Assembly (NCBI GenBank): GCA_963931865.1
Contig: OZ007513.1
Span: 434,001 to 498,000 of the forward strand
Length of the DNA stretch: 64,000 nt
Source of the DNA: Axinella damicornis
Taxonomy: Eukaryota; Porifera; Demospongiae; Axinellida; Axinellidae
Direction of reading: 5' to 3'
Position numbers and translations under genes: made by a program. The notes beneath the pieces were generated by a model that was not told the origin of the DNA, searched no databases, and saw only the letters and a program-made list of their open reading frames with translations. Below, one piece after another: positions 1,784-63,185 of this stretch (the first letter of the stretch is position 1; every line of letters begins with the position of its first letter).

Positions 1784-1903
1784 ATGAGGTATGGCTGGGT
1801 CACCACAGCTAAAATGCACTGTCAGTGCAACTCTGCTGCCTCTCCTGGTCATTATGACCACCTGCTCTGGTCACACCATACGATACATCAAGCCCACTCC
1901 TGA
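1784..1903 (+). promoter_or_regulatory. Overlapping upstream ORF of gene A (conserved in family)
   Basis: An ATG seven bases before the gene A start opens a 39-codon out-of-frame ORF overlapping the signal-peptide region and ending at TGA 1901-1903. The same ATG-AGG-[TC]-ATG arrangement precedes genes B, D, E, F and G (14834, 30683, 36639, 47235, 55526). If the transcript begins upstream, ribosomes meet this ATG first, so it could lower translation of the receptor. Conservation may simply reflect recent duplication. Confidence 0.45.
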
Positions 1904-4900
1904 CACACCATGTCCTGCTGACCCCTGCCTCACTCTCTCCGAGTACGCACAACAACCTCACCACTACCTCACCTCCAACACCACACTGCTGCTCCTGCCT
2001 GGGGAACATGACCTCAGTGTGAACTTTACAGTGGAGAATGTGAGTGATTTTGAGATTAGAGCAGCATCATCCTCACCTCATGCTGTGAACATTGTCTGCC
2101 GACAATTGGTTGGCTTTACATTTAGAAACATGTCACACATGACACTGCACAGCTTGACCTTTACCTCTTGTGGCAAGGGTGCAACTGCCTATGGTTACCC
2201 AACTGCAGTCCAGACTGCATATGGAGTGTCAGTTCATTCGGGACAAGACACTGAGATTGCCGACTGCTCATTTCAGGACAGTATTGGTACTGCTCTGGGA
2301 GTGTTCAACAGTAGCTTGGTCCTGAGAGGAAGCAACAGTTTCACCAACAACTTTGTGAAATGCTCTAATACCTGCATGGGAGGTGGAATTTATGCTAATG
2401 CAAGCACCTTGGTCTTCACAGGGAACAGCACTTTCAGAAACCATTCAGTTTATATAGGTGGAGGTTTCTTTGCATGGTCCAGTACTGTTCACTTTACCGG
2501 TAGTAGCACTTTCATGAACAACTCAGCTACAAACAATGGTGGAGGATTCTTGGCAGTGAGCAGTACTCTTAACTTCACCGGTAGTAGCACTTTCATGAAC
2601 AACTCAGCTGCAAATGCTGGTGGAGGATTCTTGGCATGGTACAGTACTCTTAACTTTACTGGTAGTAGCACTTTCATGAACAACTCAGCTACAAATGCTG
2701 GTGGAGGATTCTTGGCATGGTACAGTACTCTTAACTTTACCGGTAGTAGCACTTTCATGAACAACTCAGCTGGACTCTATGGTGGAGGGTTCCGTACATA
2801 TGAAAGTGTTCTGTATTTTCGAAACAGTGCAACTCAGAACACTGAGCTGTATAGTGAAGGTTGTGATTCAGACAATTTAGTCTTCATGAATAATTCGGCA
2901 TTGATTCATGGTGGAGCAGTGTTCACAGTTGACAGTATTTTATGCTTTGAAGGATGTAACATCTTTAGTGGCAACTCAGCACACTATTACGGAGGAGGCG
3001 TTTACTCCGAGAACAGCACTCTGAAGTTCAACGGAAACACAGATTTCAGATCAAACTCAGGACATTTGCAAGGTGGAGGGATCTATGGACTGGGAGCAAG
3101 TCTCTATTTCAGTGGAAACAGCAGCTTCACAGCAAACACTGCTGCAAGGGGTGGGGGAGAGTACCTGACACATTCACCCAATTTCTTTTCTCCCTATGCA
3201 AATATCGTTTTTGATAAGAACAATGCAACAGAGTATGGGGGAGCAGTGTATGTGGAGGATTCTGACCCTATCTCTTACTGCTTTCCCAATGACATTGAGA
3301 GGAAATGTTCATTTCAAGTCAATGGGTTCTTTAGTACTTATCGACAATTTCTTGATATTCACCTACGTTTCTACAACAACCATGCACAGATAGCAGGTGG
3401 TTCAGTGTATGGTGGCACAATATACAACTGTGCAGTTCATGTTCGGAGTTTGAACACCATAGTCCGTGAGTCAATCTTTCAAGCATTTGAGTTTGAAATG
3501 GAGCCTAAAAATTCCATTTCTTCTGATCCATTCAAAGTGTTACTGTGTAAAGATGGGACCCCAAATGGCAACACTTCAAATTCAGAGCTGGTCAGACGAG
3601 TGTATCCAGGTGAACTACTCCATTTTCCTTTGGTCGCATCCGGTCAGAGGGAAGAAACTATTCCTGCTGTGATCAGAGCATTCTTCAACGGCACATATGG
3701 AAATACGTCACTGGCTCAATTCCAAGATACCCAGAGAGTGAAGAAAACTTGTACTGAACTTTATTACCAAGTGCTTTCATCAGCTGCTAACCACAACAAG
3801 ACATTAGTGCTGTATGCGGACGGTCCATGTTCAACTGATGGACACCTTCTAAATATCTCTTTACAGTTCCTTCCCTGCCCACCTGGGTTTAGCTTGAATT
3901 CATCTGAGAGGATCTGTGGGTGTGAACCGAGGCTCCAGAAGTACACTACCAGGTGTAATGTCACAAAAAGAGAAATAAAACGTGAAAAAGAATACTGGGT
4001 GGGATATGACAATAGCTCTCAAGCACTGATTCTCCATCCACACTGCCCATTTGACTACTGCAAGCCAGTCACAGACCAAACTAGTTTCCCTCTCAACAAT
4101 ACGGACTTGCAGTGTGCAAACAGCAGGTCAGGTCTCTTATGTGGACGGTGCAAACCAGGTCTTAGCCTTGCTCTTGGTAGCTCCAAATGCATACAGTGCT
4201 CTGACCTGTACATATGGCTGGTTATTCCATTTGCCCTGGCTGGGATTGCTTTAGTCCTTCTACTGCTTGCTTTAAAGCTCACAGTTGCAGCAGGAACCAT
4301 CAATGGGCTGCTTTTCTATGCCAACATAGTCACAGTCAATCGTGCAATCTTCTTACCACCCAACCAAACCAACATTCTGACAGTGTTCATAGCGTGGCTT
4401 AACCTGGACTTAGGCATTGAGACTTGCCTCTTCGATGGATTGGATGCATATGTTAAAACATGGTTGCAGTATATCTTTCCTTTGTATATTTGGAGCTTAG
4501 TGGGGCTAATAATTATTTTTAGTGACTACTCGTCGACAATTGCAAAATTGTTCGGCTCCAATCCAGTTGCAGTTCTGGCAACCCTCTTCCTCCTTTCCTA
4601 TGCGAAGCTCCTTCGTACCATCATCGCTGCATTGTTCTTCACTTTCCTGGACTATCCCAATGAGGTGCAGGTTGCTGTGTGGCTGCATGATGGGAACATT
4701 AAGTACCTTCACGGCAAACACATTGTCCTCTTTCTCGTTGCTTCACTAACACTTCTGCTCTTGTTTCTTCCCTACACCCTCCTTCTCACTGTGGGACAGG
4801 TGCTGCAGGCAAAGTCCAATCGTAGGCTCTTCTATTGGATCAACAAGCCCAGAATAAAACCATTCCTCGATGCCTACCAAGCACCATACAATGACCGACA

Positions 4901-5495
4901 TCGGTACTGGACTGGACTGATGCTTTGTCTTCGTTGTGCTCTCTTTCTTGTGTTTGCCTTCAACACTCAAGCTGATCCCAGTCTCAACCTTCTGGCTATC
5001 TCTTCAGTAGCGTTTGGACTTACTGTAGTGAAACAATACACTGGTGCAGTGTACAAGAAGTTGTACGTTGATGTTCTTGAAGTCTCTTTCATCCTCAACC
5101 TGGGAATTCTTGCCATAGCCACATACTATGTGAAACTTGCTGTAGTACCAGTCAGCCAGGCTGCTGTTACCTACACCTCAGTGAGTGTAGCACTCGCCAC
5201 CTTTGTCGGGGTCCTTCTCTACCACACTCACCAGCAAGTGTGGCCCAAACTGCAGCAGAAACTTCAGCAGCTGCAACATCAGGAAGAAAGCGAGAGTTTC
5301 AAGGACAGCATTTCTGAGGAGGAAACCCGACCTTTGCTTGCTCCCACCACAACTATAATTGAGTTTCCAGATGAACAGCAACCCATCACGATTGATACAG
5401 CTGATGACCGTCCAGTGAAAGCTCCACATCTCAAGACTGTTGCCTTCACTGAACTCAGGGAGCCACTTGATTTGATTGACACAAACGATCCATAA
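1791..5495 (+). CDS. Gene A: secreted beta-helix (Pmp-type) repeat, multi-pass membrane protein
   Basis: The reading frame encodes 1234 residues without an intron. A signal peptide ends near the TTCSG-H junction (residue ~27), followed by a conserved block with PCPADPC. Residues ~185-480 hold GGGF / FTGSSTFMNNSA repeats, about five near-identical and four divergent, typical of Chlamydia_PMP-like right-handed beta-helices. Then come a conserved ectodomain with RRVYPGELLHFPL, a Cys-rich stalk (CPPGFSL, LCGRCKPGLSLALGSSKC), about nine hydrophobic segments (~806-1146) and an ~88-residue acidic tail ending LIDTNDP. Many N-x-S/T sites suggest glycosylation. The start matches the paralogues; a 3' splice-like CCCTGCAG ends at 1777 and an out-of-frame ATG lies at 1784. 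Closest to gene F. The surface receptor or adhesion role is inferred. Confidence 0.9.
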   Translation: MAGSPQLKCTVSATLLPLLVIMTTCSGHTIRYIKPTPDTPCPADPCLTLSEYAQQPHHYLTSNTTLLLLPGEHDLSVNFTVENVSDFEIRAASSSPHAVNIVCRQLVGFTFRNMSHMTLHSLTFTSCGKGATAYGYPTAVQTAYGVSVHSGQDTEIADCSFQDSIGTALGVFNSSLVLRGSNSFTNNFVKCSNTCMGGGIYANASTLVFTGNSTFRNHSVYIGGGFFAWSSTVHFTGSSTFMNNSATNNGGGFLAVSSTLNFTGSSTFMNNSAANAGGGFLAWYSTLNFTGSSTFMNNSATNAGGGFLAWYSTLNFTGSSTFMNNSAGLYGGGFRTYESVLYFRNSATQNTELYSEGCDSDNLVFMNNSALIHGGAVFTVDSILCFEGCNIFSGNSAHYYGGGVYSENSTLKFNGNTDFRSNSGHLQGGGIYGLGASLYFSGNSSFTANTAARGGGEYLTHSPNFFSPYANIVFDKNNATEYGGAVYVEDSDPISYCFPNDIERKCSFQVNGFFSTYRQFLDIHLRFYNNHAQIAGGSVYGGTIYNCAVHVRSLNTIVRESIFQAFEFEMEPKNSISSDPFKVLLCKDGTPNGNTSNSELVRRVYPGELLHFPLVASGQREETIPAVIRAFFNGTYGNTSLAQFQDTQRVKKTCTELYYQVLSSAANHNKTLVLYADGPCSTDGHLLNISLQFLPCPPGFSLNSSERICGCEPRLQKYTTRCNVTKREIKREKEYWVGYDNSSQALILHPHCPFDYCKPVTDQTSFPLNNTDLQCANSRSGLLCGRCKPGLSLALGSSKCIQCSDLYIWLVIPFALAGIALVLLLLALKLTVAAGTINGLLFYANIVTVNRAIFLPPNQTNILTVFIAWLNLDLGIETCLFDGLDAYVKTWLQYIFPLYIWSLVGLIIIFSDYSSTIAKLFGSNPVAVLATLFLLSYAKLLRTIIAALFFTFLDYPNEVQVAVWLHDGNIKYLHGKHIVLFLVASLTLLLLFLPYTLLLTVGQVLQAKSNRRLFYWINKPRIKPFLDAYQAPYNDRHRYWTGLMLCLRCALFLVFAFNTQADPSLNLLAISSVAFGLTVVKQYTGAVYKKLYVDVLEVSFILNLGILAIATYYVKLAVVPVSQAAVTYTSVSVALATFVGVLLYHTHQQVWPKLQQKLQQLQHQEESESFKDSISEEETRPLLAPTTTIIEFPDEQQPITIDTADDRPVKAPHLKTVAFTELREPLDLIDTNDP

Positions 5496-5830
5496 TGCAC
5501 GTCTGGATAGTGAACATGATCACAATATGATGTTAGTACATGCCAACCTTGCACTAACTTGGGCCTTGTGTACATAGCTACCTCCACAAGACTACATATT
5601 TGAATTGTCACACTGCGTAAAGCTCCATATTATACATTATGTAGCTACATCTTACTGTTGTATGATAACTTTATGCTGTTCATTCTCAAGCTCGCAGTTG
5701 CAACTGGAAGCTTTGGGTTGCTCTTCTGTGCCAAGATGAAGATGTTTGTTTCACCTCTGTGTTCATTGCGTAGAGCTTATCTCACTTTTCTGCATATGGT
5801 GTGGGGAGTCCCCTTCTGTGATCAACACTG
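5496..5830. other. 3' flank of gene A, duplicated after genes E and F
   Basis: The sequence after the stop codon is nearly the same as after gene F (51281-51607) and, with small deletions, after gene E (40174-40485). This shows that the duplication units extend past the coding region. It probably includes the 3' UTR. I see no clear AATAAA signal and no coding potential beyond short frames. Confidence 0.6.
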
Positions 5831-6795
5831 CCAATGTGGTCTAATGACCCATATTACAGGATCCCTGAAGCCAATGTGGTCTAATGCAAGGCCATCGGAA
5901 GCGGTGTGGCCGGTGCGGCTATGGCCGCACCACTTTGTTGAGACGTTGTTTTTAATAAATAGAATGCGTGCGCAAGCACGTGCAATTATAATGATTCTGA
6001 AAATGACATGTCACTGTCAAAGCGAAGCTACCAACTCCTTTACTTTCGGAAAAACCTCATCAGCCCTTGTCCTTCAAGTTTCCAAAGCGTGAATTCGGGG
6101 AAAAAAGCGTTGTGAAGAGATCGTTCCAACCTCAGTGGTTTGCTCGTTGGAAGTGGCTACACTATACTACGACGAAGAACACGAGTTGGCCTTCTGTTCA
6201 CGTGCGTGAAAGCCTACAAAGTAAACAAGCTCCATTCGTCTACCAACCTTGAGACGACCTATATTTCAACAGGGTATAGTAACTGGAAAGATGCCTCGGT
6301 AAGAATTGCAGCTCATGAAGCCAGCGCGTGTCACAAAGATGCCGTACTGAGGACAATTACACTTCCGGCTACAACGCGCGATATAGGCGAAAGCCTCTCA
6401 GCACAGCAAAATAAATGTTATCGGTGTGTGTGCAACAGATGGTAATTTTGTCTCAGCTAAGATGTGTGCTTTTATCACAGAAGGCTCTAAAAGTAGCCTC
6501 AGAGAGCATGAATATCAAAATATTTCCTGGGGGGGCATGCCCCCAGACCCCCTTAGCTAGCGTGCGTTATACGCGCGCTACTGCTGCACATTGGCCTTAC
6601 CACTTCCTCTGTGCTTCCGACGGCCCTGTAATGACCCTTATTACATCATCATGGTTAGGATAAGTGAGGATCCCTGAAGCCAATGTGGTCTAATGACCCT
6701 TATTACATCATCATGCTGAGGATCCCTGAAGCCAATGTGGTCTAATGACACTTATTACATCATCATGGTTAGGATAAGTGAGAATCCCTGAAGTC
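5831..6795. repeat. 52-bp tandem repeat, gene A flank (interrupted)
   Basis: Copies of a ~52-base unit beginning GGATCCCTGAAGCCAATG and containing CCCTTATTACATCATC occur at 5831-5886 and 6629-6795, with some copies extended by GGATAAGTGA. A 742-bp transposon splits the array. The same array has about six copies after gene E and about ten after gene F. Confidence 0.8.
5887..6628. mobile_element. Non-autonomous DNA transposon with 16-bp inverted ends
   Basis: The insertion starts CAAGGCCATCGGAAGC and ends GCTTCCGACGGCCCTG; the 16-base ends pair with two mismatches. It is flanked by the direct repeat TAATG (5882-5886, 6629-6633), consistent with a 5-bp target duplication inside the 52-bp repeat. 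The arrays after genes E and F lack it, so the empty site is visible. It contains GGGGGGGCATGCCCCCAG and short frames only, with no recognisable transposase. The superfamily is not certain. Confidence 0.75.
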
Positions 6796-7299
6796 AATGT
6801 AAAAGAAATGGAGGAACGTGAGGTGCATGCACTCATTTGATTGGATGGTATACAAACTTGCACATTACTATTATATTTGCTCTCACTGAATGTGCTGAAA
6901 TGTCTGATAGTTTAGCCACTGATGGTAATCACACCTGGTCCAATTCCAGTCATATCCAAAACACCTGCGGGTCCTATTATGCTGTGGTAGCTGACTGGCT
7001 AATATCTGACTGCGCACAATAAGTTGTACTGTGTGATCTTGTTGCTAAGGGTGCAATGACTGCCACAAGGAGACTGGCAAGGGTTGCCATAGAAATGTCT
7101 TTTTGCATGGGGATAATTAGCTAGCTACCTTCAATAGAATTCGAAACAGTACAACTTCTGAATCACTATAGGTACAGCTACACCGTAAGAGGGTTTTTTC
7201 AACCTGGCTCTGGTCACAGTTGCCTCCCTCAGTGATTTCCACTGTAGGATGCAGCTTGATTTGATCTGCATCACAGATCTCACAGGTAGCTGGCTAGTT
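6796..7299. other. Duplicated non-coding flank
   Basis: This stretch matches 52161-52663 almost base for base and 40796-41290 with more changes. I see no supported gene; short frames differ between the copies. Confidence 0.5.
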
Positions 7300-7610
7300 G
7301 TAGCACTCACCACCTTTGTTGGGGTCCTTCTCTACCACACTTACCGGCCCAAACTGCAGCAGAAATGTCAGCAACTGCATTGTCACGAGGAGATGGAGAC
7401 AGCTAATGACAGCAGTTCAGAGGAGGAGGTGACAACAGTGATGAAGCTCAACCATTTCTTACTCCCACCACATCCATTGTTGAGTTCCCAAATCCACAGA
7501 TAGCTATATAGCTACACAATGCAGCCGACAATAGTCCTCGACCTCTGAAGGTCGCTACCTTCACTGAACTTAGGGAGCCACTTGATTTGATTGACACAAA
7601 CAATTTGTGA
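7300..7610 (+). pseudogene. Detached C-terminal tail fragment, frameshifted
   Basis: From GTAGCACTCACC to a terminal TGA this matches the last transmembrane segment and cytoplasmic tail of the family (VALTTFVGVLLYHTY, PKLQQK, EEEV, FTELREPLDLIDTN). It lacks the three residues QQV. Compared with the intact copy at 52664-52963 it has a one-base loss near 7435 and further changes near 7500, so the frame is broken. It begins exactly at the palindrome GTGAGTGTAGCACTCAC present in the full genes. It is a duplication remnant unless used as an alternative 3' exon. Confidence 0.8.
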
Positions 7611-8157
7611 AACTGCTCGAGCAATGCACACCTGCCAACTGTATGACAGCTACTGTAGTATGCTGTACATTGGGCCTTGAGAGCTAATTAGTTTACCCAT
7701 CTTATTGTTAACTGTGATAGCTACTTATTCTAGATAGCTACTAAATCTTGTGCCTATACAGCTACCAATAATTTTATTTGTTATTCCTTTGTTCCATGAG
7801 TGTATGCTCAAGACCTACCAAATGGTAAACTAATCATTGGGGATAGGAAGGAGGCACTAGTACAGAGAAGATAATAACTAGCTATCATCCTTCTACAAAT
7901 TATGTACCCAGCCTGCATGACTTGGATCACACCAGTTGTGTCTTCACCATGAGTGATAGTTCCATGTGCACAGTACACCAATCAGGTATACTGTACCCAT
8001 GGTGACAAGATGCCCCTGAGGTAAGGTACAATGACACAATGGTACAATAACATAATAACTAGCTACATAACAATCTAGCTACTACCTAACTCTATACAAT
8101 GTCATAAGCTAAAAGTTCAAAAATATTATTGTGTACGTGACTGCAGAAGGCAACTGA
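7611..8157. other. Duplicated intergenic sequence
   Basis: Nearly identical to 52964-53496, between a tail fragment and the - strand glycohydrolase terminus. No gene is supported. It probably holds the 3' end of the - strand transcript. Confidence 0.5.
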
Positions 8158-11100
8158 TCACTGGACGACGGTCTCAATGTAGCCCAAGATCTCTTCTGCT
8201 TGGTTCACCTTCATCACCCAATCCTCTGGGATGGAATCAAGACCGAACCTGGCATGGGAACGAGAACAGGTGAGGTTGCTGCACACTCAGCTTGGGAACT
8301 TGACCCCGGAAAAACGGTACCTTGCGGCCACACAGGCTCCTATAAACCCTCCACGTGAGCAGTTGTCCCCCGCAGCCAAGATGCCTGCCCGGACGGCACT
8401 CTGGAAGTCCTTGGCGATTGCAATACCCTGCACCATCCCGTGGAAAGAGGCAGGGAGACCTGCAGGAGAGTTGAGCAAAGGAGGGAGAGAGGGAGGTTAT
8501 TGTCATTCACCAACAACATGTAGCCGCTGTGGAGAGAATGTTCTCCTTGTTGCAAAACTCTCTCAAACACCAACAAGCTTCACTGGAAGATTATATTACT
8601 CTTTCTGTAATGCTATAATACAGAGTAAAGGTGCACTGAACTGTAATTGTACAAGTCATAATCAGGACTAATAAATAATAGGTCAACTGACAAGCTTAAT
8701 CCGTCAAGACCTAGAGCGGGGGGGCTTTTAAATGCAGTTACTGACCAAACTCATATGAATGAGTTGAACTCCTTACCACATGCCAAGCCAAATTCTTTCA
8801 CTGCCGCCAAGTGAGATTTTTTGCTCACTGCCTTTGCTTTCTCTATTGCAGCTGCGACTGTCTCATCTGTCTCAAACTTGTGCTGGCGGGTGGGGTCCCG
8901 GAGCTGCTGCACGGCGGTGTCCAGGCCATCCTCGCCGGTCTCAATGACGTGGTTCAGGATCCGGGCCCCGCCCAGAGCAAAACCAACGGCAATGGGGTTG
9001 GACTGTACCATGTGTGGGGAGGGAGGGGTTCATGTGTATGAGTAGAGGGGGAGGAGGGTGGGAGGACCAGGGGGAGGGGAGGGGGGAGGGGGGAGGGGAG
9101 AGGGGAGGGGGGAGGGGAGAGGGGAGTGGGATGAGGAGGGAGAGGGGAGTGGGGTGAGGAGGGAGGGGGGAGGGGAGAGGGGGGAGGGGAGAGGGGAGAG
9201 GGGGGAGGGCAGAGGGGGGGGGGGGGGGGGGAGAGGAGGGAGGGGGGGAGGGAGGGGAGAGGAGGGAGGGGGATGGGAGAGGGGAATGGGGAATGGGAGA
9301 GAAAACTCCACACAATACTGCCTGAGGTTTCATGAGGGTTGCCATGCACCTGTAATAGTTGTACATGGTGCTAACTCTCCCCTCCCCTCCCTCCTCAGTG
9401 GCTCTGCGCACATGGCCTCAGCACCATGCAGTTCTTGATCGTTTACAGCATGCTGTACGCGATCAAAAACTGGTGGTGTAGAAGGCCTGGGAACGAGGCT
9501 ACGCATAGCAGACTAATATGCTAAGTATCTTGGGCTAGGAAGGAGATATGAAGCTGGGATTTGCACCATTGTGATCAGCATGAATGGAGCTTTCCAATGA
9601 TGTCCTTTTTGTTGTTGGTTGAATTTTGACCCAAAATCATGAAAAACCATGGATTATAGCCTTTGGTCGAGTGCGATTTTTGACAAAAATGTGATGGACA
9701 ATAAAAACCGATTTTAGGACATCAATTAAAGCTGTTTTTATGCTGATCTGAATGGCACAATCCCCAGCTTCATATCTCATTCAAATGCACAGATACAACA
9801 GGTGGAGCATTTGAATGAGATAGGAAGCTGGGATTTTCACCATTGTGATCAGAATGAATGGAGCATTTGAATGAGATACGAAGCTGGGGATTTTGCCACT
9901 GTGATCAGCATGAAAACAGCTCAGACAGACAGAAACAATTGCTTTATCCTCTTTCCACATGCACATGTGGAGTACCACTCTTGCCCGTACAATGTCATAC
10001 AGAGTACCTTCAGGAGATGCAATACTTAGAGTCCATTGAATCATACATGTGGAGTATCACTCTTACCAGCGCGAGGTGAGGGTAAAGTAAGGGGCAGGAG
10101 GTGTCATTATCCTATCAGCTGCTCTACCAGGAGTGCAACTGATCTACCAGGAGTGCAGATGCTCTACAATGAGTGCAGCTGCTCTACCTGGAGTGCAGCT
10201 GCTCTACCAGGAGTGCAACTGATCTACCAGGAGGCAGCTGCTCTACCAGGAGTGCAGCTGCTCTACCAGGAGTGCAGCTGCTCTACCAGGAGTGCAATTG
10301 ATCTACCAGGAGGACAGCTGCTCTACCAGGAGTGCAGCTGCTCTACCAGGAGTGCAGCTGCTCTACCAGGAGTGCAGCTGCTCTACCAGCAGTGCAGCTG
10401 CTCTACCAGGAGTGCAGCTGCTCCACCCTTGTCCCACATACCTGTGTCACTTTGACACACCTCTCCACGGATGCCAGCATCTCTGACTTGCCACTGAGCA
10501 TGGCAATGACGCCAATGGATTTGACCAGGCCATCAGGATCGGCACTGCCTGGGTCCGACTCGGGAGTCTCCCCATTCTCACGCTTTGCAATGAATATCTG
10601 CAAAGAGTATAACAATGAACTCACATTTGAGGCCCTTTCCCTTCCCGTCTAGGGGTGAATATGGCAATCTGATTGGCTTATTACTCCAAGTCAGTGGCCA
10701 TCAGATGGATAAAAGTGAGCCTGTTACCTATGACAGCAGATGAGCCCAATAACTACATCTGATAGCCTCAAGGCTAAGGTGACCCACTCATCAACTGACA
10801 GTGAGCTGTACAGTGGGCTTGCAGCATAAGTTTCCAGATTCTAACCAATCAGGCTGTACACTCAGTCGGTCAGTGTGTGGTTATTCACCACAGGATGGCT
10901 TCTTGGTCCTCAATGAAACTACAGTGATCTCCAGTAAGTTTTCAAGTGATCTCCACTAATTTCTATATAGCAATCTAGTATTCTCTAGTAATCTCTAGTA
11001 ATCTCTAGTAGTCTCTAGTAGTCTCTAGTAAATCTCTAGTAATCTCTAGTAATCCCTAGTAATCTCTAGTAATCTAATAGTTAATCACCTCATTACACAA

Positions 11101-14840: not shown

Positions 14841-17800
14841 ATGGCTGGGTCACCACAGCTTATAAGGTGTACTGTCAGTGCAACTCTGCTACCTCTCCTG
14901 GTCATTATGACCACCTGCTCTGGTCAGACCATACGATACGTCAAGCCCACTCCTGACACACCATGTCCTGCTGACCCCTGCCTCACTCTCTCCGAGTATG
15001 CACAACAACCTCACCACTACCTCACCTCCAACACCACGCTGCTACTCCTGCCTGGGGAACATGACCTCAGTGTGAACTTTACGGTGGAGAATGTGAGTGA
15101 TTTTGAGATTAGCGCATCATCATCCTCACCTCATGCTGTGAACATTGTCTGCCAACAATTGGTTGGCTTTACATTTAGAAACATGTCACACATGACACTG
15201 CACGGCTTGACCTTTACCTCCTGTGGCAAGGGTGCAACTTATTCTGCCTTAGGTTACCCAATCCCGACTGCATATGGAGTGTCAGTTCATTCGGGACAAG
15301 ACACTGAGATTGTCAACTGCTCATTTCAGGACAGTATTGGTACTGCTCTGGGAGTGTTCAACAGTAGCCTGGTCCTGAGAGGAAGCAACAATTTCACCAA
15401 CAACTGTGCGGGAAAATGCTCTGGCAGTTTATGTTTCTGTGTGGGAGGTGGAATTTTCGCAGACACAAGCACCTTGGTCTTCACAGGAAACAGCACTTTT
15501 GGAGACAATTCAGCTGACTTTGGTGGAGGATTCTATGCACGGTACAGTATTGTTCACTTTACCGGTAGTAGCACTTTCATGAACAACTTAGCTGACAGGG
15601 GTGGAGGATTCTATGCAGAGAACAGTACTCTTAACTTCACCGGTAGTCTGAGCTCTTTCATGAACAACTTAGCTAGATTCTATGGTGGAGGATTCTATAC
15701 ACAGAACAGTACTCTTAACTTTATTGGTAGTAGCAATTTCATGAACAACTCAGCTGACAGTGGTGGAGGATTCTATGCAGGGAACTGTACTCTTAACTTT
15801 ATCGGTAGTAGCACTTTCATGAACAACTCAGCTACAACCATTGGTGGAGGATTCTCTGCATGGTTCAGTACTCTTAACTTTGCTGGTATTAGCACTTTCT
15901 CAGCTAACAGTGGTGGAGGATTCATTGCAGGGTACAGTACTCTTAACTTTATCGGTAGTAGCACTTTCATGAACAACTCAGCTACAACCAATGGTGGAGG
16001 ATTCAATGCAGTGTACAGTACTCTTAACTTTACTGGTAGAAGCACTTTCATGAACAACTCAGCTAACAGTGGTGGAGGATTCTATGCACAGTACAGTACT
16101 CTTAACTTTACCGGTAGTAGCACTTTTATGAACAACTCAGCTCGTGGTGGTGGAGGATTCTGTGCAGTATACAGTATTCTTAACTTTACTGGTAGTAGCA
16201 CTTTCGTGAACAACTCAGCTGACAGTGGTGGAGGATTCTATGCAGTGTACAGTACTCTTAACTTTACCGGTAGTAGCACTTTCATGAACAACTCAGCTCG
16301 TGGTGGTGGAGGATTCTATGCATGGAACAGTATTCTTAACTTTACTGGTAGTAGCACTTTCATGAACAACTCAGCTAGACACCATGGTGGAGGATTCTAT
16401 GCAGTGTACAGTACTCTTAACTTTACAGGTAGTAGCACTTTCATGAACAACTCAGCTAAAACCATTGGTGGAGGATTCTGTGCAGTGTACAGTACTCTTA
16501 ACTTTACTGGTAGAAGCACTTTCATGAACAACTCAGCTAACAGTGGTGGAGGATTCACTGCAGGGTACAGTACTCTTAACTTTATCGGTAGTAGCACTTT
16601 CATGAACAACTCAGCTACAACCAATGGTGGAGGATTCTTTGCATGGTTCAATACTCTTAACTGTACTGGTAGAAGCACTTTCATGAACAACTCAGCTTAC
16701 AGTGGTGGAGGATTCATTGCACAGAACAGTACTCTTAACTTCACCGGTAGTAGCAATTTCACGAACAACTCAGCTTACAGTGGTGGAGGATTCTATGCAG
16801 GGAACAGTACTCTTAACTTTACTGGTAGAAGCACTTTCATGAACAACTCAGCTGACAATGGTGGAGGATTCATTATAATATGGAAAAGTACTCTTAACTT
16901 CACCGGTAGTCTGAGCTCTTTCATGAACAACTCAGCTACAACTATTGGTGGAGGATTCTCTGCATGGTTCAGTACTCTTAACTTTATCGGTAGTAGCACT
17001 TTCATGAACAACTCAGCTACAAACAGTGGTGGAGGATTCTTTGCATTGAGCAGTACTCTTAACTTTATTGGTAGTAGCACTTTCATGAACAACTCAGCTG
17101 ACAGTGGTGGAGGATTCTATGCATGGAACAGTACTCTTAACTGTACTGGTAGAAGCACTTTCACGAACAACTCAGCTAGACTCCGTGGTGGAGGATTCTA
17201 TGCACTAGAAAGCATTCTGAACCTTGCTGGAAATCGTACAACTCAGAACACTGGGCTGCTTTATGGAGGTTGCAATTCAGACAAACTAGTCTTCATGAAT
17301 AATTTGGCATTGCTCCATGGTGGAGCAGTGTACGGAAGAGACAGCAACTTAAATTTTGAAGGATGTAACATCTTCAGTGGCAACTCAGCGCACTTCTACG
17401 GAGGAGGAGTTTACTCCCAGAACAGCACTCTGAAGTTCAACGGAAACACAAGTTTCAAGTCAAACTCAGGACGATTGCAAGGTGGAGGGATATATGGTCT
17501 GGGAACAAATGTCCATTTCAGTGGAAACTGCAGCTTCACTGCAAACACTGCTGCAAGGGGTGGGGGAGAGTACCTGACACAGTCATTCAATTTATTTTCT
17601 CATTATGCAAAAGTCGTTTTTGATAAGAACAATGCAAAAGAGTATGGGGGAGCAGTGTATGTGGAGGATTCTGACCCGACATCTTATTGCTTTCCTGATA
17701 TTCAGGATCTCAGACGGTGTTTCTTTCAACCTGCTGGAGTGTATCAATTATCACCATTTCAATCACCTACTCTGTCAGTTGTTGAATTTCACCTACATTT

Positions 17801-35978: not shown

Positions 35979-36645
35979 GTGAGTGACGTGTAACTGTATC
36001 TCCTGGTCGCTAGCTGCATCTCTAGTGGTACCAATTATTGGAAAAAAAGCCAAATCAATAAGTGCCCTGTTCTATATTATATTCCTGGTAAACATTTTCC
36101 ACAGTCAAATGTTTTAGGTGGAAAGGTGAAAGGCATGCAATGATTCTGACCACACCCCCCGTCATGCAATGAAACAAGCATAATATTATGACATTGCACC
36201 TCTACTATGAGACACAATACCATTTCAATTACCAACAAGCTATCAAAAGGATGTGACACTTGTGGTAAAGTACGACAACACGTTTGATAATACTCACATC
36301 TACAATATAGCTAATAATTGTGTTAAAACTCACCTCGATGGTGGAGCTATGAGCGCTTTTGTCTTCCCATTGTGGCCACCATCGTTCAGCAAAGTTGAGC
36401 ACTCCATTTGCCAGTCTGGCATTGCAGGTCCCTTGCACTCGTCCATTGACTAGCCCGTCAATTTTAGCGCAACACTGTCGAGATTGCCATCTAGTGGATT
36501 CTGACTATTCTGTGCTGAAGTTCAAATTTGGTGGTGACATCGCACATAACTGAAGAGTTGCACAGCTAAGCTATGCACAAATAGTGGTTTTTCATGCTTA
36601 CAATGAGTATACTGCTTCTGTACACCCTGCAGCTGTGCATGAGGT

Positions 36646-41994: not shown

Positions 41995-42885
41995 GGACTA
42001 TTTGCATACTATAGCACTCTGACATTCAGTGGTACCATTACTCTCAGATACAACTCGGCTCAATCAAAAGGAGGAGAAATCCTTTTATGGCACAGTGCTG
42101 TGAATGCTACTTGGAACGGTACTTTCAAAAACAACTCAGCTGAATAATTTGGAGGAGGACTTGCTGGACAGTACTGCAATCTTAGACTATCCTTCACTGG
42201 AAACAATTTCTTCAAAGATAACTCTGCTACAAAGGGAGGAGCAGTTGGAGTAAACGACAGTATTCTGCATTTCACTGGAAACATTTTATTCGAAAGAAAC
42301 ATTGCATTCAAAACCAACTCATCTATGCCACACTGTTGCTATGGTGTAGGAATCTATGTGGATAAAAGTATTCTGGAAACATTACGTTCAAAAACAACGT
42401 AGTCACTGGTGAACACACCGACGGTGGGGGGAATTTGCTGGACTAAGTGCAAGGCGTTCTAACAACCGTTTGAGAGGCAACTCTGCTGGGAGTGGTGGAA
42501 GAGTTTATGCACTTAGTAGCACAATACAATTTGCTAGAAACTGTAGAGTGAGAATACATTCACCTCAATTTTCATGGATAACCGTGCACTGATGCATGGT
42601 GGTGGCCTGTACACAGAAAACAGCACCCTACTGTTTGAAGGATGCACCATCTTTAATGGCAACTCAGCATTGTATTATGGTGGGGGAATATGTTCTCGGA
42701 ACAGCACTGTGATGTTCAGTGGACACACTAGTTTCACTTCAAACTCAGCACAAGACAATCAGTCATTAGGTGGAGGGCTCTATGGACTGGGAACAAGTCT
42801 CTACTTCAGTGGAAACAACAGCTTCACAGCAAACACTGCTGCAAGGGGTGGGGGAGAGTACTTGGAGAATTCATTGAATTAGCTA
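41995..42885 (+). pseudogene. Relic of a gene C-type receptor ectodomain
   Basis: Colinear with gene C from its LFAYYSTLTFSGTITLRYNSA unit (split here for length) to the GGGEYLENSLN unit. It contains multiple frameshifts, an in-frame stop after AATAATTTGGAGG (42146) and internal deletions. The last part (42574-42882) still reads cleanly: GGGLYTENST, GGGICSRNST, GGGLYGLGTS, ending ENSLN-stop. It runs directly into the 24-bp minisatellite. No signal peptide or membrane domain. Confidence 0.85.
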
Positions 42886-47241: not shown

Positions 47242-50200
47242 ATGGCTGGGTCACCACAGCTAAAGTGCACTGTCAGTGCAACTCTGCTACCTCTCCTGGT
47301 CATTATGACCACCTGCTCTGGTCACACCATACGATACGTCAAGCCCACTACTCCTGATACACCATGTCCTGCTGATCCCTGCCTCACTCTCTCCGAGTAT
47401 GCACAACAACCTCACCACTACCTCACCTCCAACACCACGCTGCTACTCCTGGCTGGGGAACATGTCCTCAGTGTGAACTTTACGGTGGAGAATGTGAGTG
47501 ATTTTGAGATTAGCGCATCATTATCCTCACCTCATGCTGTGAAGATTGTCTGCCAACAATTGGTTGGCTTTACATTTAGAAACATGTCACACATGACACT
47601 GCACAGCTTGACCTTTACCTCTTGTGGCAAGGGTGCAATTTATTCTGCCTATGGTTTCCCAATCCCGACTGCATATGGAGTGTCAGTTCATTCAGGACAA
47701 GACACTGAGATTGTCAACTGCTCATTTCAGGACAGTATTGGTACTGCTCTGGGAGTGTTCAACAACAGTAGCCTGGTCCTGAGAGGAAGCAGCAGTTTCA
47801 TCAACAACTGTGGGAAATGCTCTGGCAGTTTATGTTTCTGTGTGGGAGGTGGAATTTACGCAGACACAAGCACCTTGGTCTTCACAGGAAACAGCACTTT
47901 TGGAGACAACTCAGCTGACTTTGGTGGAGGATTCTATGCACAGAACAGTACTCTTAACTTTACTGGTAGTAGCACTTTCACGAACAACTCAGCTGGACTC
48001 CATGGTGGAGGATTCTTTGCAGTGTACAGTAGTACTCTTAACTTCACCGGTAGCAGCACTTTCATGAACAACTCAGCTGGATTCTATGGTGGAGGATTCT
48101 TTGCATGGTTCAGTACTCTTAACTTTACTGGTAGTAGCACTTTCATGCATGAACAACTCAGCTGTGTATACTGGTGGAGGATTCTATGCACGGTTCATTA
48201 CTCTTAACTTTACTGGTAGTAGCACTTTCATGAACAACTCAGCTGACAATGGTGGAGGATTCTATGCACAGAACAGTACTCTTAACCTTATCGGTAGTAA
48301 TACTTTCATGAACAACTCAGCTGTGTATACTGGTGGAGGATTCTATGCACAGTGTACTCTTAACTTTACCGGTAGTAGCACTTTCATGAACAACTCAGCT
48401 GGACTCCATGGTGGAGGTTTCTATACAGGGTACAGTACTCTTAACTTTACCGGTAGTAGCACTTTCATGAACAACTCAGCTAGACTCCATGGTGGAGGAT
48501 TCTATGCATGGAACAGTACTCTTAACTTTACCGGTAGTAGCACTTTCATGAACAACTCAGCTAGACTCTATGGTGGAGGGTTCCGTACATACGAAAGTAT
48601 TCTGTATTTTGGAAATAGTGCAACTCAGAGCACTGAGCTGTATGGTGGAGGTTGTGATTCAGACAATTTAGTCTTCATGAATAATTTGGCATCGATTCAT
48701 GGTGGAGCAGTGTACACAGAAGACAGTATTTTATGCTTTGAAGGATGTAACATCTTTAGTGGCAACTCTGCACGCTACTATGGAGGAGGCGTTTACTCTG
48801 AGAACAGCACTCTGAAGTTCAATGGAAACACAAAGTTCAGATCAAACTCAGGACATTTGCAAGGTGGAGGGATCTATGGACTGGGAACAAGTTTTTATTT
48901 TAGTGGAAACAGCAGCTTCACAGCAAACACTGCTGCAAGGGGCGGGGGAGAGTACCTGACAAGTTCATTCAATTTCTTTTCTCGCTATGCAAATATCGTT
49001 TTTGATAAGAACAATGCAACAGAGTATGGGGGAGCAGTATATGTGGAGGATTCTGACCCTATCTCTTACTGCTTTCCCAATCACATTGAGAGGAAATGTT
49101 CATTTCAAGTCAATGGGTTCTTTAATCGACCATCTCTTGATATTCACCTGCATTTCTACAACAACCATGCACAGATAGCAGGCAGTTCAGTGTATGGCGG
49201 CGCAATATACAACTGTATAGTTCAAGTTCAGACTTTTGTCGCTATATTCTATGAGTTAATCTTTGAAGCATTTGATTTTGAAATGGAGCCTAATAATTCC
49301 GCTTCTTCTGATCCATTCAAAGTGTTACTGTGTAAAGATGGGACCCCAAATCGCAACACTTCAAATTCAGAGCTGGTCAGACGAGTGTATCCAGGAGAAC
49401 TGCTCCATTTTCCTTTGGCCGCATCCGGTCAGGGGGAGGAAACTATTCCAGCTGTGATAAGAGCATTCTTCAATGACACATTTGGAAATACCTCACTGGC
49501 TCGATTCCAAGATACTCAGAAAGTAACGAAAACCTGCACAGAACTTTATTACCAAGTGCATTCATCAGCTGCTAACCACAACGAGACATTAGTGCTGTAT
49601 GCAGACGGTCCATGTTCAACTGATGGACGGCTTCTAAATATCTCTTTACAGTTCCTTCCCTGCCCACCTGGGTTTAGCTTGAATTCATCTGAGAGGATCT
49701 GTGGGTGTGAACCGAGGCTTCAGAAGTACACTACCAGGTGTAATGTCACAAAAAGAGAAATAAAACGTGAAAAAGAATACTGGGTGGGATATGACAATAG
49801 CTCTCAAGCACTGATTCTCCATCCACGCTGCCCATTTGACTACTGCAAGCCAGTCACAGACCAAACTAGTTTCCCTCTCAACAATACGGACTTGCAGTGT
49901 GCAAACAGCAGGTCTGGTCTCTTATGTGGACGGTGCAAACCAGGTCTTAGCCTTGCTCTTGGTAGCTCCAAATGCATACAGTGCTCTGACCTTTACATAT
50001 GGCTGGTTATTCCATTTGCCCTGGCTGGGATTGCTTTAGTCCTTCTACTGCTTGCTTTAAAGCTCACAGTTGCAGCAGGAACCATCAATGGGCTGCTTTT
50101 CTATGCCAACATAGTCACAGTCAATCGTGCAATCTTCTTCCCACCCAACCAAACCAACATTCTGACAGTGTTCATAGCGTGGCTTAACCTGGACTTAGGC

Positions 50201-51280
50201 ATTGAGACTTGCCTCTTCGATGGATTGGATGCATATGTTAAAACATGGTTGCAGTATATCTTTCCTTTGTACATTTGGAGCTTAGTGGGGCTAATAATTA
50301 TTGTTAGTGACTACTCGTCGACAATTGCAAAATTGTTCGGCTCCAATCCAGTTGCAGTTCTGGCAACCCTCTTCCTCCTTTCCTATGCGAAGCTTCTTCG
50401 TACCATCATCGCTGCATTGTTCTTCACTTTCCTGGACTATCCCAATGAGGTGCAGGTTGCTGTGTGGCTGCATGATGGGAACATTAAGTACCTTCACGGC
50501 AAACACATTGTCCTCTTTCTCGTTGCTTCACTAACACTTCTGCTCTTGTTTCTTCCCTACACCCTCCTCCTCACTGTGGGACAGTGGCTGCAGGCAAAGT
50601 CCAATCATAGGCTCTTCTATTGGATCAACAAGCCCAGAATAAAACCATTCCTGGATGCCTACCAAGCACCATACAATGACCGACATCGGTACTGGACTGG
50701 ACTGATGCTTTGTCTTCGCTCTGCTCTCTTTCTTGTGTTTGCCTTCAACACTCAAGCTGATCCCAGTCTCAACCTTCTGGCTATCTCTTCAGTAGCTCTT
50801 GGACTTACTGTAGTGAAACAATACACTGGTGCAGTGTACAAGAAGTTGTATGTTGATGTTCTTGAGGTCTCTTTCACCGTCAATCTGGGAATTCTGTCCA
50901 TAGCCACCTACTGTGTGAAACTTGCTGTAGTACCAGTTAGCCAGGCAGCTGTTACCTACACCTCAGTGAGTGTAGCACTCACCACCTTTGTTGGGGTCCT
51001 TCTCTACCACACTTACCAGCAAGTGTGGCCCAAACTGCAGCAGAAACTTCAGCAGCTGCAACATCAGGAAGAAAGCGAGAGTTTCAAGGACAGCATTTCT
51101 GAGGAGGAAACCCGACCTTTGCTTGCTCCCACCACAACTATAATTGAGTTTCCAGATGAACAGCAACCCATCACGATTGATACAGCTGATGACCGTCCAG
51201 TGAAAGCTCCACATCTCAAGACTGTTGCCTTCACTGAACTCAGGGAGCCACTTGATTTGATTGACACAAACGATCCGTAA
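47242..51280 (+). pseudogene. Gene F: beta-helix repeat receptor with one 4-bp frameshift
   Basis: The family start, signal peptide and N-terminal block are intact. After three complete repeats the reading frame breaks at 48144-48151, where CATG is duplicated (TTCATGCATGAAC instead of TTCATGAAC), leading to a stop at 48207. The next frame (from about 48152) continues to 51280 with six more standard repeats, conserved units, ectodomain, stalk, multi-pass region and a tail ending LIDTNDP, with no other defect. The sequence is closest to gene A, including the ISSVALGLTVVKQYTG membrane variant. It may be a recent pseudogene, a polymorphic allele or an assembly error; everything else looks functional. 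Confidence 0.85.
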
Positions 51281-52160: not shown

Positions 52161-52663
52161 AGTCAATGTAAAAGAAATGGAGGAACGTGAGGTGCACGCA
52201 CTCATTTGATTGGATGGTATACAAACTTGCACATTACTATTATTTTTGCTATCACTGAATGTGCTGAAATGTCTGATAGTTTAGCCACGGATGGTAATCA
52301 CACCTGGTCCAATTCCAGTCATATCCAAAACACCTGCGGGTCCTATTATGCTGTGGTAGCTGATTGGTTAATATCTGACTGCGCACAATAAGTTGTACTG
52401 AGTGATCTTGTTGCTAAGGTGCAATGACTGCCACTAGGAGACTGGCAAGGGTTGCCATAGAAATGTCTTTTTGCATGGGGATAATTAGCTACCTTCAATA
52501 GAATTCGAAACAGTACAACTTCTGAATCACTATAGGTACAGCTACACTGTAAGAGGGTTTTTTCAACCTGGCTCTGGTCACAGTTGCCTCCCTCAGTGAT
52601 TTCCGCTGTAGGATGCAGCTTGATTTGATCTGCATCACAGATCTCACAGGTAGCTGGCTAGTT
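52161..52663. other. Duplicated flank before the tail fragment
   Basis: Matches 6796-7299. No gene is supported. Confidence 0.5.
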
Positions 52664-52963
52664 GTAGCACTCACCACCTTTGTTGGGGTCCTTCTCTACC
52701 ACACTTACTGGCCCAAACTGCAGCAGAAACGTCAGCAACTGCATCGTCGCGAGGAGAGGGAGACAGCTAATGACAGCAGTTCAGAGGAGGAGGTGACAAC
52801 GAGTGATGAAGCTCAACCATTGCTTACTCCCACCACGTCCATTGTTGAGTTCCCAAATCCACAGTTTCACAATGAAATCAACAATAATCCTCGACCTCTG
52901 AAGGTCGCTACCTTCACTGAACTTAGGGAGCCACTTGATTTGATTGACACAAACGATTTGTGA
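52664..52963 (+). pseudogene. Detached C-terminal tail fragment, open frame
   Basis: It encodes VALTTFVGVLLYHTY, then WPKLQQKRQQLHRREERE, NDSSSEEE, PLLTPTTSIVEFPNP and FTELREPLDLIDTNDL, that is the last membrane segment plus the full cytoplasmic tail. The frame is open from 52613 to the stop. QQV is missing relative to full genes. The intact frame contrasts with the broken copy at 7300-7610, so use as an alternative last exon cannot be excluded. Homology starts at the GTAGCACTCAC half of a gene-internal palindrome. Confidence 0.7.
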
Positions 52964-55532: not shown

Positions 55533-55784
55533 ATGGCTGGGTCACCACAGCTAAAGTGCACTGTCAGTGCAACTCTGCTACCTCTCCTGGTCATTATGAC
55601 CACCTGCTCTGGTCACACCATACGATACGTCAAGCCCACTCCTGACACACCATGTCCTGCTGACCCCTGCCTCACTCTCTCCGAGTATGCACAACAACCT
55701 CACCATTACCTCACATCCAACACCACGCTGCTACTCCTGCCTGGCGACCACGCCCTCAGTCACTGCCAGTGTTGTAGTAATTGA
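55533..55784 (+). pseudogene. Stub G: signal peptide and N-terminal block only
   Basis: 83 codons with the family signal peptide, YVKPTPDTPCPADPC and LLLLPGDHALS, ending SHCQCCSN and a stop. It breaks after CTCAGT, exactly as in stub D, of which it is the duplicate. An upstream ATG is at 55526. Truncated pseudogene or small secreted protein. Confidence 0.75.
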
Positions 55785-55971
55785 ATAACCATAATAATTA
55801 ATTATGCAATGATTACAGGTTTTCAGATACAGTAATTGTAATGGTAGTTTTGGAGACTTTAATCTGCAATTCTATGATAAACACCATGTAATTGTGAACT
55901 GTAGTTTACAGCATCACTTCTTTGCATTCTAGTGGAGAAGGACAGAGTCAGCAAGGCTGGAGGTCCTTGTC

Positions 55972-56106
55972 ATGGCAACCCTGCTGGTCCTTTCCTCCAC
56001 CTGCTCTGGCCTCACTGTACTATACGTCAAGCCCACTCCTGACACACCATGTCCTGCTGACCACTGCCTCACTCTCTCCGAGTACGCACAACAACCTCAC
56101 CGCTAG
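55972..56106 (+). pseudogene. Second N-terminal stub, gene C-like
   Basis: A 44-codon ORF: MATLLVLSSTCSG, then YVKPTPDTPCPADHC and LSEYAQQPHR followed by TAG. The preceding GTCAGCAAGGCTGGAGG matches the gene C start region (GTCAGTAAGGTTGGAGG). The proline of PCPADPC is lost (PADHC). A stop interrupts where the full genes continue HYLTSNTT. It is absent after stub D, so it was gained in block G or lost in block D. Confidence 0.7.
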
Positions 56107-60349: not shown

Positions 60350-60359
60350 CTACGTGAAT

Positions 60360-60446: not shown

Positions 60447-61099
60447 GTGAGTGACGTGTAACTGTATCTCCTGGTCGCTAGCTATAGCTGCATCTCTAGT
60501 GGTACCAACTATTGGAAAAAAGCCAAATCAATAAGTGCCCTGTTCTATATTATATTCCTGGTAAAAATTTTCCACAGTCAAATGTTTTAGGTGGAAAGGT
60601 GAAAGGCACGGAATGATTCTGACCACACACCCCATCATGCAATGAAACAAGCATATAACATTGCACCTCTAGTATGAGACACGATACCATTTCAATACCA
60701 ACAAGCTATCAAGAGGATGTGACACTTGTGGTAAAGTACGACAACACGTTTGATAATACTCACATCTACAATATAGCTGTTAAAACTCACCTCGACGGTG
60801 GAGCTATGAGCGCTTTTGTCTTCCCATTGTGGCCACCATCGTTCAGCAAAGTTGAGCACTCCATTTGCCAGTCTGGCATTGCAGGTCCCTTGCACTCGTC
60901 CATTGACTAGCCTGTCAATTTTAGCGTTACACTGTCGAGATTGCCATCTAGTGGATTCTGACTATTCTGTGCTGAAGTTCAAATTTGGTGGTGACATCGC
61001 ACATAACTGAAGAGTTGCACGGCTAAGCTATGCACAAATAGTGGTTTTTCATGCTTATGAGTATACTGCTTCTGTACACCCTGCAGCTGCACATAAGGT

Positions 61100-63185
61100 A
61101 TAGCTGGGTCAACACAGCTAAAGTGCACTGTCGTGCTACCTCTCCTGGTCATTTTGAGCACCTGCTCTGGTCACACCATACGATACGTCAAGCCCACTCC
61201 TGACACACCATGTCCTGCTGACCCCTGCCTCACTCTCTCCGAGTATGCACAACAACCTCACCACTACCTCACCTCTAACACCACGCTGCTACTCCTGCCT
61301 GGGGACCATGTCCTCAGTGTGAACTTTACGGTGGAGAATGTCAGTGAGTTTGAGATTAGTGCTGCACAGTTGTCCCCACAAGCAGAGAATCAGCCAGTAA
61401 AGATTGTGTGCCACGGATTGGTCGGTTTTACATTTAGAAACATATCACACATGACACTGCACGACTTGACCTTTACCTCTTGTAGCAAGGGTGCAACTAA
61501 TGGAGTGTCAATACATTCAGGACAAGACACTGAGATTGCCAACTGCTCATTTCAGGACAGTATCTGTACTGCTCTGAAAGTGTTCAACAGTAGCCTGGTC
61601 CTGAGAGGAAGCAACAGTTTCATCAACAGCTGCGCAAAATATCCTGGCAGTTCTTGTTTCTGTTTGGGAGGTGCAATTTCTGCAGGAGCAAGCACCTTGG
61701 TCTTCACAGGAAACAGCACTTTCAGAGACAATTCAGCTTACCAGGGTGGAGGATTGTTCACAGGGTCCTGTACTATTAACTTTACCGGTAGTAGCACTTT
61801 CATGGGCAACTCAGCTAATTTCAGTGGAGGATTTAATGCAGGAAACACTACTTTTAACTTTAAAGGCAGGAGTACTTTCATGAACAACTCAGCTCGATCT
61901 TCTGGAGGAGGATTTTATATACAGGCAAGCACTGTGAGGGTTAGTACAACACGGATCACTGGGACCTACGGTGGAATTTGTAATTCAGACAAATTAGTTT
62001 TTATGAATAATTTTGCATCGTTTCATGGTGGAGCAATATACACACAAGACAGCAACTTATATTTTGAAGGATGTAACATCTTTAGTGGCAACTCAGCGCA
62101 CTACTACGGAGGAGGCGTTTACTCCAGTAACAGCACTCTGAAGTTCAACGGAAACACAAATTTCAAATCAAACTCAGGACATTTGCAAGGTGGAGGGATC
62201 TATGGACTGGGAACAAGTGTCCATTTCAGTGGAAACAGCAGCTTCACTGCAAACACTGCTGCAAGGGGTGGGGGAGAGTACCTGACACATTCACCAAATT
62301 TCTTTTCTCGTCATGCAAATCTTATTTTTGATAAGAACAACGCAACACAGTATGGAGGAGCAGTGTATGTGGAGGATTCTGACCCAATCTCGTATTGCTT
62401 TCCTGATTTTGACAACCCGGTAAAGTGCTTCTTTCAAATCGATGACTTCAGTGCAACTATCTCGTCTGTCAGAGCATTTCTTGATATTCATGTACGTTTC
62501 TACCAGAACTATGCGCGGACAGCAGGCAGTTCATTGTATGGCGGTGCAATGTTCAACTGCACCACTTACGCTTACCACTCAGGGAAAAAATTTGAATCAT
62601 CTACCAGCATACCTCCACTCTACTTGGAACTGGAGCCAACTAGCAGTATTTCTTCTGATCCATTCCAAGTTTTCCTTTGCGAAGATGGGACACCAACTGA
62701 CTCAGACGAGTGTATCCAGGTGAACTGCTCCATTTTCCTGTAGTCGCATCCGGTCAGGGGAAGGAAACTACTCCTGCTGTGATAAGAGCATTCTTCAATG
62801 ACACATATGGAAATACATCACTGGCTCGATTCCAAGATACTCAGAAAGTGACACCAAGTACATTCATCAGCTGCTAACCACAACGAGACATTAGTGCTGT
62901 ATGCAGACGGTCCATGTTCAACTGATGGACAGCTTTTAAATATCTCTTTACAGTTCCTTCCCTGCCCCCCTGGGTTTAGCTTGAGTTCATCTGAGACGAT
63001 CTGTGGGTGTGAACCGAGGCTTCAGAAGTACACCACCAGGTGTAATATCACAGAAAGAACCATAACACATGAGGGGGAGTACTGGGTGGGATATGACAAT
63101 AGCTCTCAAGCACTGATTCTCCATCCATACTGCCCATTTGACTACTGCAAGCCAGCCACAAACTACACTAGTTTCCCTCTCAACA
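61100..63185 (+). pseudogene. Pseudogene H: gene E-like receptor, broken at both ends
   Basis: Colinear with gene E. The start ATG reads ATA (61100) and the upstream ATG is also ATA. A 9-base in-frame loss shortens the signal peptide. The frame then stays open to ~62703, covering the N-terminal block, three standard repeats and the ectodomain. A 10-base deletion (~62704) shifts the frame to a stop at 62743; a 23-base deletion (~62852) restores it, and the stalk (CPPGFSLSSSE, CEPRLQKYTTRCN) continues. At 63185 the sequence leaves the family (FPLNN lost) for a dispersed repeat, so the multi-pass region and tail are missing from the window. The rest could lie beyond the inserted element. Confidence 0.88.

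Follow-up and report, generated by a model that had tools for sequence, protein, structure and literature searches.

What, if anything, is read by a set of sponge surface proteins encoded in tandem is the question raised by a 64,000-nucleotide stretch of the Axinella damicornis genome. This stretch (the window) covers positions 434001-498000 of contig C9 (13.25 Mb) in a genome assembly of 226 Mb and 120 contigs, and contains five near-complete genes, one broken gene and several fragments of a single family. The proteins combine a repeat ectodomain predicted to form a beta-helix, a Cys-rich stalk, a multi-pass membrane region and a conserved tail. With confidence a little short of even, the cluster is interpreted from its sequence as one of germline-diversified receptors for glycan or microbe recognition, or for adhesion. 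Recognition, contact with glycans and signalling through the membrane would be the presumed activities of these proteins.

A large family of beta-helix multi-pass proteins

The genes of the window are as follows (positions are those of the window).
1791..5495, + strand: gene 1, intact single exon, 1234 amino acids (open frame; Chlam_PMP E = 1.4e-11)
14841..19937, + strand: gene 2, intact, 1698 amino acids, longest coil array of the window (frame, Pfam, tblastn)
15505..17204, + strand: coding tandem array of gene 2, about 21 units of 78-81 bp, each corresponding to one beta-helix coil
24453..28547, + strand: gene 3, open frame of 1364 amino acids from the ATG at 24453, N-terminus frame-shifted relative to the other genes
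36646..40173, + strand: gene 4, intact, 1175 amino acids, the subject of structure prediction
47242..48207, + strand: gene 5, first part, up to a frame change within the coil array (Beta_helix E = 4.5e-6)
48149..51280, + strand: gene 5, second part in another frame, with later coils, stalk, membrane region and tail
61100..62743, + strand: gene 6, ectodomain part, broken, lacking an ATG at the conserved start
62852..63196, + strand: gene 6, stalk part in another frame

Genes 1-4 are held by stop-to-stop frames of 1235, 1699, 1386 and 1176 codons, respectively, and their ATG codons (1791, 14841, 24453 and 36646) are followed by hydrophobic leader-like stretches, as judged by eye. In gene 1 the order is leader, beta-helix, stalk, multi-pass region and tail. 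The true start of gene 3 is uncertain because the stretch matching the MAGS start of the other genes sits in a different frame; both 24417 and 24453 are ATG codons. Gene 5 (47242-51280) is split across two overlapping frames. Gene 6 (61100-63196) changes frame, and its DNA matches gene 4 only as far as 63186, short of the membrane region, which is missing.

The Pfam family Chlam_PMP (PF02415) was matched above its 20.6-bit cut-off in six of the seven window pieces scanned, and Beta_helix was matched in the seventh. All 28 scanned homologues match PF02415 at E up to 1 (best 4.8e-46). A Pmp-type repeat ectodomain is thus present according to the Pfam matches and the coil listing, as is the right-handed beta-helix passenger. 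The strict core GGA[ILV]-x(14,18)-FxxN occurs once in each of nine genes, and the relaxed core GG[AG]-x(14,20) occurs 6-28 times per gene versus 0-2 times in reversed sequence. The outer architecture also includes a beta-rich domain besides the Cys-rich stalk, and the ectodomains of genes 1-4 carry 22-60 glycosylation sequons. Hydropathy averaged over 69 homologues gave eight strong and two weak segments after the leader, in agreement with the earlier note, which had counted about nine. In the predicted structure of gene 4 the C-terminus is helical, with one loop of three strands between helices. No transporter or other known family was identified for the membrane region in the comparisons made, which included Pfam scans; TRP-like proteins of fungi and protists that bear a Cys-rich stalk, and that may resemble the membrane module, gave no match in these comparisons.

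Motif and entropy counts across homologues refer to 120 listed sequences of 5276 public homologues. The conserved tail described in the earlier note is borne out by the motif [LF]RE[PLS][LCFM], which lies within the last 60 residues of 97 of the 120. A looser tail-end pattern was found in 101, at least one of which is apparently spurious; the residue three places ahead of it is F in 46 of 101 and Y in 18 of 101. The Y at that spot implies that some members carry a YxxL-type motif (sorting or immunoreceptor tyrosine-based inhibitory motif-like).

At least 91 matches to a stalk-plus-membrane query were found on at least 12 contigs of the genome (C1, C3-C10 and C12-C14), a number that is a lower bound because scoring covered no more than 91 of the 755 first-look candidates. 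Internal stops occur in five of the 91 and are absent from the other 86. Among the matches listed, clusters of 14 in 115 kb (C14), 19 in 178 kb (C1) and 10 in 118 kb (C9) were seen. The last lies between C9:438086 and 556386. The extent that the earlier note gave for the cluster in the window has the right coordinates, but the cluster continues, with five matches beyond the right end of the window. The 5276 homologues come from the public protein set, where 7997 sequences were scored and E values up to 0.001 were accepted; at least six of those listed lie on contigs of 2-8 Mb. The window is a small piece of a very large germline-encoded family of probable cell-surface proteins. A description of this family was not found in the open-licence literature searched, although it may be published elsewhere.

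Bacterial or viral origin was considered and rejected, as no relative turned up when viral and bacterial/archaeal genome collections were scanned with profiles; the 48 and 44 pattern matches from these scans, respectively, were not upheld by tblastn.

Several known systems share parts of this design. In vertebrate clustered protocadherins, paralogues are clustered, their membrane-side parts are homogenised and their outer parts have diverged. The divergence pattern described below is alike in this respect; the genes of the window differ in being single-exon, in belonging to a family spread over many contigs and in lacking a cadherin match. The sponge aggregation factor contains Calx-beta domains, for which there is no match here. 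No cadherin, Calx-beta, NACHT, LRR or SRCR match was found by Pfam among the window pieces and scanned homologues (E up to 1 for cadherin and Calx-beta), and no autotransporter match was found in the same set at E up to 1. The sponge NLR and SRCR expansions are likewise large lineage-specific immune-type families according to passages of PMC12909245 and PMC10855680, but NACHT, LRR and SRCR domains are those for which there is no match here. The chlamydial Pmp autotransporters (PF02415) share right-handed beta-helix coils with FxxN and a repeat-rich outer part, as described in sections of PMC11166332. They differ in that the C-terminus here is predicted to be helical and multi-pass rather than a beta-barrel. 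The label 'chlamydial Pmp type' therefore stands for the repeat fold and not for the rest, given the missing autotransporter match and window coils that are mostly GGGF, not GGA[ILV]. The 48-gene Pmp-like family of Trichomonas vaginalis is likewise an expanded eukaryotic Pmp type whose members are anchored in the membrane and have an acidic tail in the cytoplasm; they are described as having a transmembrane domain at the C-terminus and motifs of the form NPx[YWF] (PMC6701047, in part). The sponge proteins have 8-10 segments and a Cys-rich stalk instead, and NPx[YWF] occurs in the last 130 residues of none of the 120 listed homologues.

Probable module exchange and variable coil positions

Divergence at four-fold sites was averaged over nine genes (36 pairs). 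Residues 601-1020 give values of 0.053-0.112 and residues 1-60 a value of 0.067; the figure rises to 0.335 in residues 421-480 and 0.263 in residues 481-540, and is 0.16-0.18 in residues 1021-1140. Mean synonymous divergence (dS) is 0.14 in the stalk, 0.15 in the membrane region and 0.22 in the N-terminus (28 pairs for the last), and reaches 0.43 in the repeats, 0.55 in ectodomain residues 431-590 and 0.48-0.53 in the tail. Misalignment of repeats could inflate the dS of the repeats, but hardly that of residues 421-540. Since synonymous sites should not track protein domains, exchange between paralogues is the simplest cause of this pattern.

Trees of single modules conflict. L010 (C6) and L043 (C9) pair in the ectodomain (98.1% identity; support 0.882, within a clade of 1.000), whereas the tail of L010 groups with those of gene 3 and L040 (96.7 and 96.5%, respectively; support 1.000 for the three). 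L040 is nearest to gene 5 in the ectodomain (95.2%) and to L010 in the membrane region and tail (94.4 and 96.5%, respectively). Most simply, the stalk and membrane region would be kept alike by exchange among paralogues; the ectodomain modules are shuffled.

Variation within coils was followed in 31 young equal-length coils from genes 1, 2 and 5, L040 and L042 (one of 32 was left out for length). Positions 1-4 show no amino-acid change and position 6 shows one, while no fewer than 8, 7 and 5 different residues occur at positions 5, 7 and 8, respectively. As a guard against saturation, coil pairs from 147 units were picked by identity of the second half and measured in the first half at three cut-offs. 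Within genes, the nonsynonymous proportion at positions 5, 7 and 8 relative to the synonymous proportion (pN/pS) was 5.2, 5.5 and 4.2 (from 190, 61 and 22 pairs); for all pairs together it was 3.5, 4.0 and 4.5 (617, 215 and 54 pairs). The other ten positions of the same young pairs gave 0.4-0.7. At least eight coils are present in 96 of the 120 listed homologues, and in 90 of these 96 the entropy at positions 5, 7 and 8 exceeds that at positions 4, 6, 10 and 12.

In Pmp coils, positions 4, 6, 10 and 12 point inward and turn 1 (T1) spans positions 6-9, as reported in part of PMC11166332. By this geometry, positions 5, 7 and 8 lie on parallel beta-sheet 1 (PB1) and T1. The PB1/T1 face forms the substrate cleft in pectate-lyase-like enzymes, and in tailspikes and beta-helix enzymes it runs along the bound polysaccharide. 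The site-specific variability at positions 5, 7 and 8 is strong; positive selection at these positions is suggested by the coil sequences, not proven.

Several observations weigh against selected diversification. Positions 5, 7 and 8 were chosen after the first 31 units had been inspected. The pN excess in young repeats is driven largely by gene 2, which contributes 75 of the within-gene pairs when genes are counted singly at a fourth cut-off (L059, 21; L060, 9). For gene 2 the ratio is 26, but pS there is as low as 0.015, and the remaining positions of this gene reach 2.5 as well; singly, L059 gives 1.83 (1.22-2.73) and L060 gives 1.28 (0-1.79). Without the choice of young pairs, pN/pS at positions 5, 7 and 8 is 0.84-1.53 in eight groups. 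In five sets that overlap in part, counting distinct codon changes gives an excess with p = 0.14, 0.045, 0.066, 0.093 and 0.075. Among the homologues there is also a fair diversity at positions 10 and 12, position 12 alone nearly matching 5, 7 and 8. Mean dN/dS is 0.30-0.46 in every region, and ectodomain residues 121-180 (0.076) and 361-420 (0.094) are as little diverged at four-fold sites as the membrane part.

Possible roles of the repertoire

Sponges harbour dense microbial communities and discriminate self from non-self. Genes of the family duplicate in blocks and some copies die; in the proposed scheme, coils would be gained or lost through repeat slippage. Positions 5, 7 and 8 would form a ladder along the PB1/T1 face, with which each receptor might read a glycan-rich surface, be it that of a microbe, a symbiont or a neighbouring sponge cell, and binding would be passed to the shared membrane module and tail. 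A more specific form of this proposal is possible, though distinctly doubtful. It holds that many tens of genes or more make up a glycan-reading repertoire, that the number of coils and three outward-facing residues in each coil are diversified on a sugar-binding face, and that an unclassified multi-pass signalling module is kept uniform by gene conversion across chromosomes, the scaffold being one not found described for animals in the open-licence literature searched. Recognition of microbes or the environment is favoured over self recognition, both being possible, as a repertoire across many contigs fits it better than a single allorecognition locus does.

Receptors for self and non-self (allorecognition), with a role like that of hyperpolymorphic histocompatibility loci, are an unlikely alternative, to which the tandem clusters, mosaicism and variation in coil number would also be suited. 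Sponge grafting indicates a polymorphic genetic system, according to parts of PMC5450542, but the family lies on at least 12 contigs, unlike the single Botryllus locus described in passages of PMC12065747. Eleven public proteins were compared with genome loci. For seven of the 11, the aligned part shows 0-4 residue differences, in two cases only through the reading of the first codon, which counts against allorecognition and against a diversified repertoire in general; the records may share one source animal, so that low variation is weak evidence. P0011 and P0005 differ from the genome loci by 19 and 26 residues, respectively, and P0008 and P0015 by 86 and 156; the latter two are probably other paralogues. 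In the pair P0005/L011, six of 15 ectodomain differences fall at positions 5, 7 and 8 (p = 1.3e-5), as allorecognition would have it, but the other three pairs have none of 15 there. The four pairs pooled give six of 30 (p = 1.4e-4), all six from P0005/L011, whose differences are either alleles or recent paralogues.

Adhesion or matrix proteins, that is, repeated homophilic or substrate adhesins whose variation tracks mechanical or stickiness needs, are about as improbable. The abundant sequons in the ectodomains of genes 1-4 are consistent with such proteins. A plain adhesin, however, would not need an 8-10-segment membrane module as its most conserved part, or variability at outward positions. 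Trichomonad Pmp proteins can increase adhesion when expressed, but they are found mainly in internal compartments, as stated in portions of PMC6701047.

Neutral birth and death, in which arrays expand by slippage and exposed coil positions are unconstrained, with no diversifying role, has a similarly low probability. It accords with a dN/dS below 1 overall, ratios near 1 at positions 5, 7 and 8 in unselected unit sets, weak event-count tests and several dead copies. Relaxed constraint alone, however, does not yield a pN 3.5-5.5 times pS in young units, and 86 of the 91 scored matches have no internal stop. A channel or sensor (a mechanosensor or TRP-like channel with the beta-helix as a tether) is the least probable reading and would be a remote one, even with the membrane module as the most conserved part and a predicted three-strand loop between its helices.

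The candidate sponge receptor families met in print are NLR proteins, SRCR proteins and the aggregation factor. Should glycan- or microbe-reading receptors be the correct interpretation, early animals would have possessed one more type of surface repertoire, whose solenoid ectodomain varies on a presumed sugar-binding face. A direct test is offered by asking which residues and which coils bind which sugar or bacterium. The family also poses a clear case of a uniform membrane module across chromosomes versus shuffled outer modules.

Layout of the window and other loci

The copies were inventoried by tblastn with gene 1, DNA self-comparison and open-frame listing. The remaining features are given below.
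30690..30917, + strand: N-terminal stub, 76 codons, 93% identity with the gene 1 protein (tblastn; in the block duplicated at 55496-63186)
55533..55760, + strand: N-terminal stub, 96% identity with the gene 1 protein (tblastn, DNA comparison)
55948..56100, + strand: third N-terminal stub, more diverged, 69% identity over 54 amino acids
11683..12254, + strand: ectodomain relic in several frames
41995..42879, + strand: ectodomain relic, nearest to gene 3 (88-91% DNA identity)
7201..7443, + strand: detached tail fragment (DNA homology 7299-7615)
52565..52957, + strand: detached tail fragment with terminal motif TELREPLDLIDTNDL
30631..38777, + strand: duplicated block (stub and gene 4), recurring at 55496-63186 (stub and gene 6) with 86-93% identity in pieces
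1713..8312, + strand: duplicated block (gene 1 and tail), recurring at 47152-53651 (gene 5 and tail) with 87-95% identity in pieces

Much of this layout is due to the two block duplications. The matches of the stubs at 30690-30917 and 55533-55760 end at the same codon (76) and both stubs lie inside duplicated blocks, so that a single truncation, later copied once, would account for the two. Alignments between genes include stretches of more than 3 kb at 85-94% identity, which excludes chance resemblance. Outside the duplicated blocks the upstream homology is short (30-92 bp before the start codon among genes 1, 2 and 4 pairwise); it extends for about 455 bp between genes 2 and 5 and for more than 1.4 kb between genes 4 and 6. 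The inventory matches the five near-complete genes, one broken gene, three stubs, two relics and two tails counted in the earlier note, with the qualification that genes 3 and 5 are imperfect. Copy turnover, variation in repeat number and mosaicism, all claimed there, are now measured in the inventory, the tandem array, the block duplications, the divergence and the conflicting trees.

A 162-codon frame at 5604-6092 holds LKLAVATGSFGLLFCAK, which by eye is similar to the opening membrane segments of the family, LKLTVAAGTINGLLFYAN; the frame has no Pfam match and could be a further relic. For six other long frames in the window, Pfam gave nothing above cut-off, and Rfam gave no family at or over its gathering score. 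A 39-bp minisatellite of about 73 copies occupies 20512-23349, about 0.6 kb behind gene 2, and further arrays lie at 33953-34508 (56 bp), 42915-43315 (24 bp) and 53703-53991 (27 bp).

Elsewhere in the genome, contig C120 (41,168 bp) is mitochondrial, with in-frame TGA in cox1, read as Trp, and an ATP-synt_C match taken as atp9, a gene carried on sponge mitochondrial DNA. Its cox1 (L047, G000:C120:24800-31500) has two introns, from which reverse-transcriptase-like and LAGLIDADG-like frames (named by eye) continue, and long repeat-like frames lie beside it. Cox1 introns of both groups are known in the sponge orders Agelasida and Axinellida, according to passages of PMC4676843. The combination of TGA as Trp, cox1 introns and atp9 is suggestive of sponge-type mitochondrial DNA, though other animals or their relatives can share single features. 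In the cathepsin-type loci L036 and L037 the QCGSCWAF motif has its usual form. One gene on C4 (L045, G000:C4:14811759-14813060 plus flanks; 482 amino acids, TTG start, intronless) looks like a bacterial haem-copper oxidase and is either a horizontal transfer, symbiont DNA or a misjoin; its neighbours, a 199-amino-acid cytochrome-c-like frame and a 106-amino-acid frame, are arranged with it as in an operon (names given by eye).

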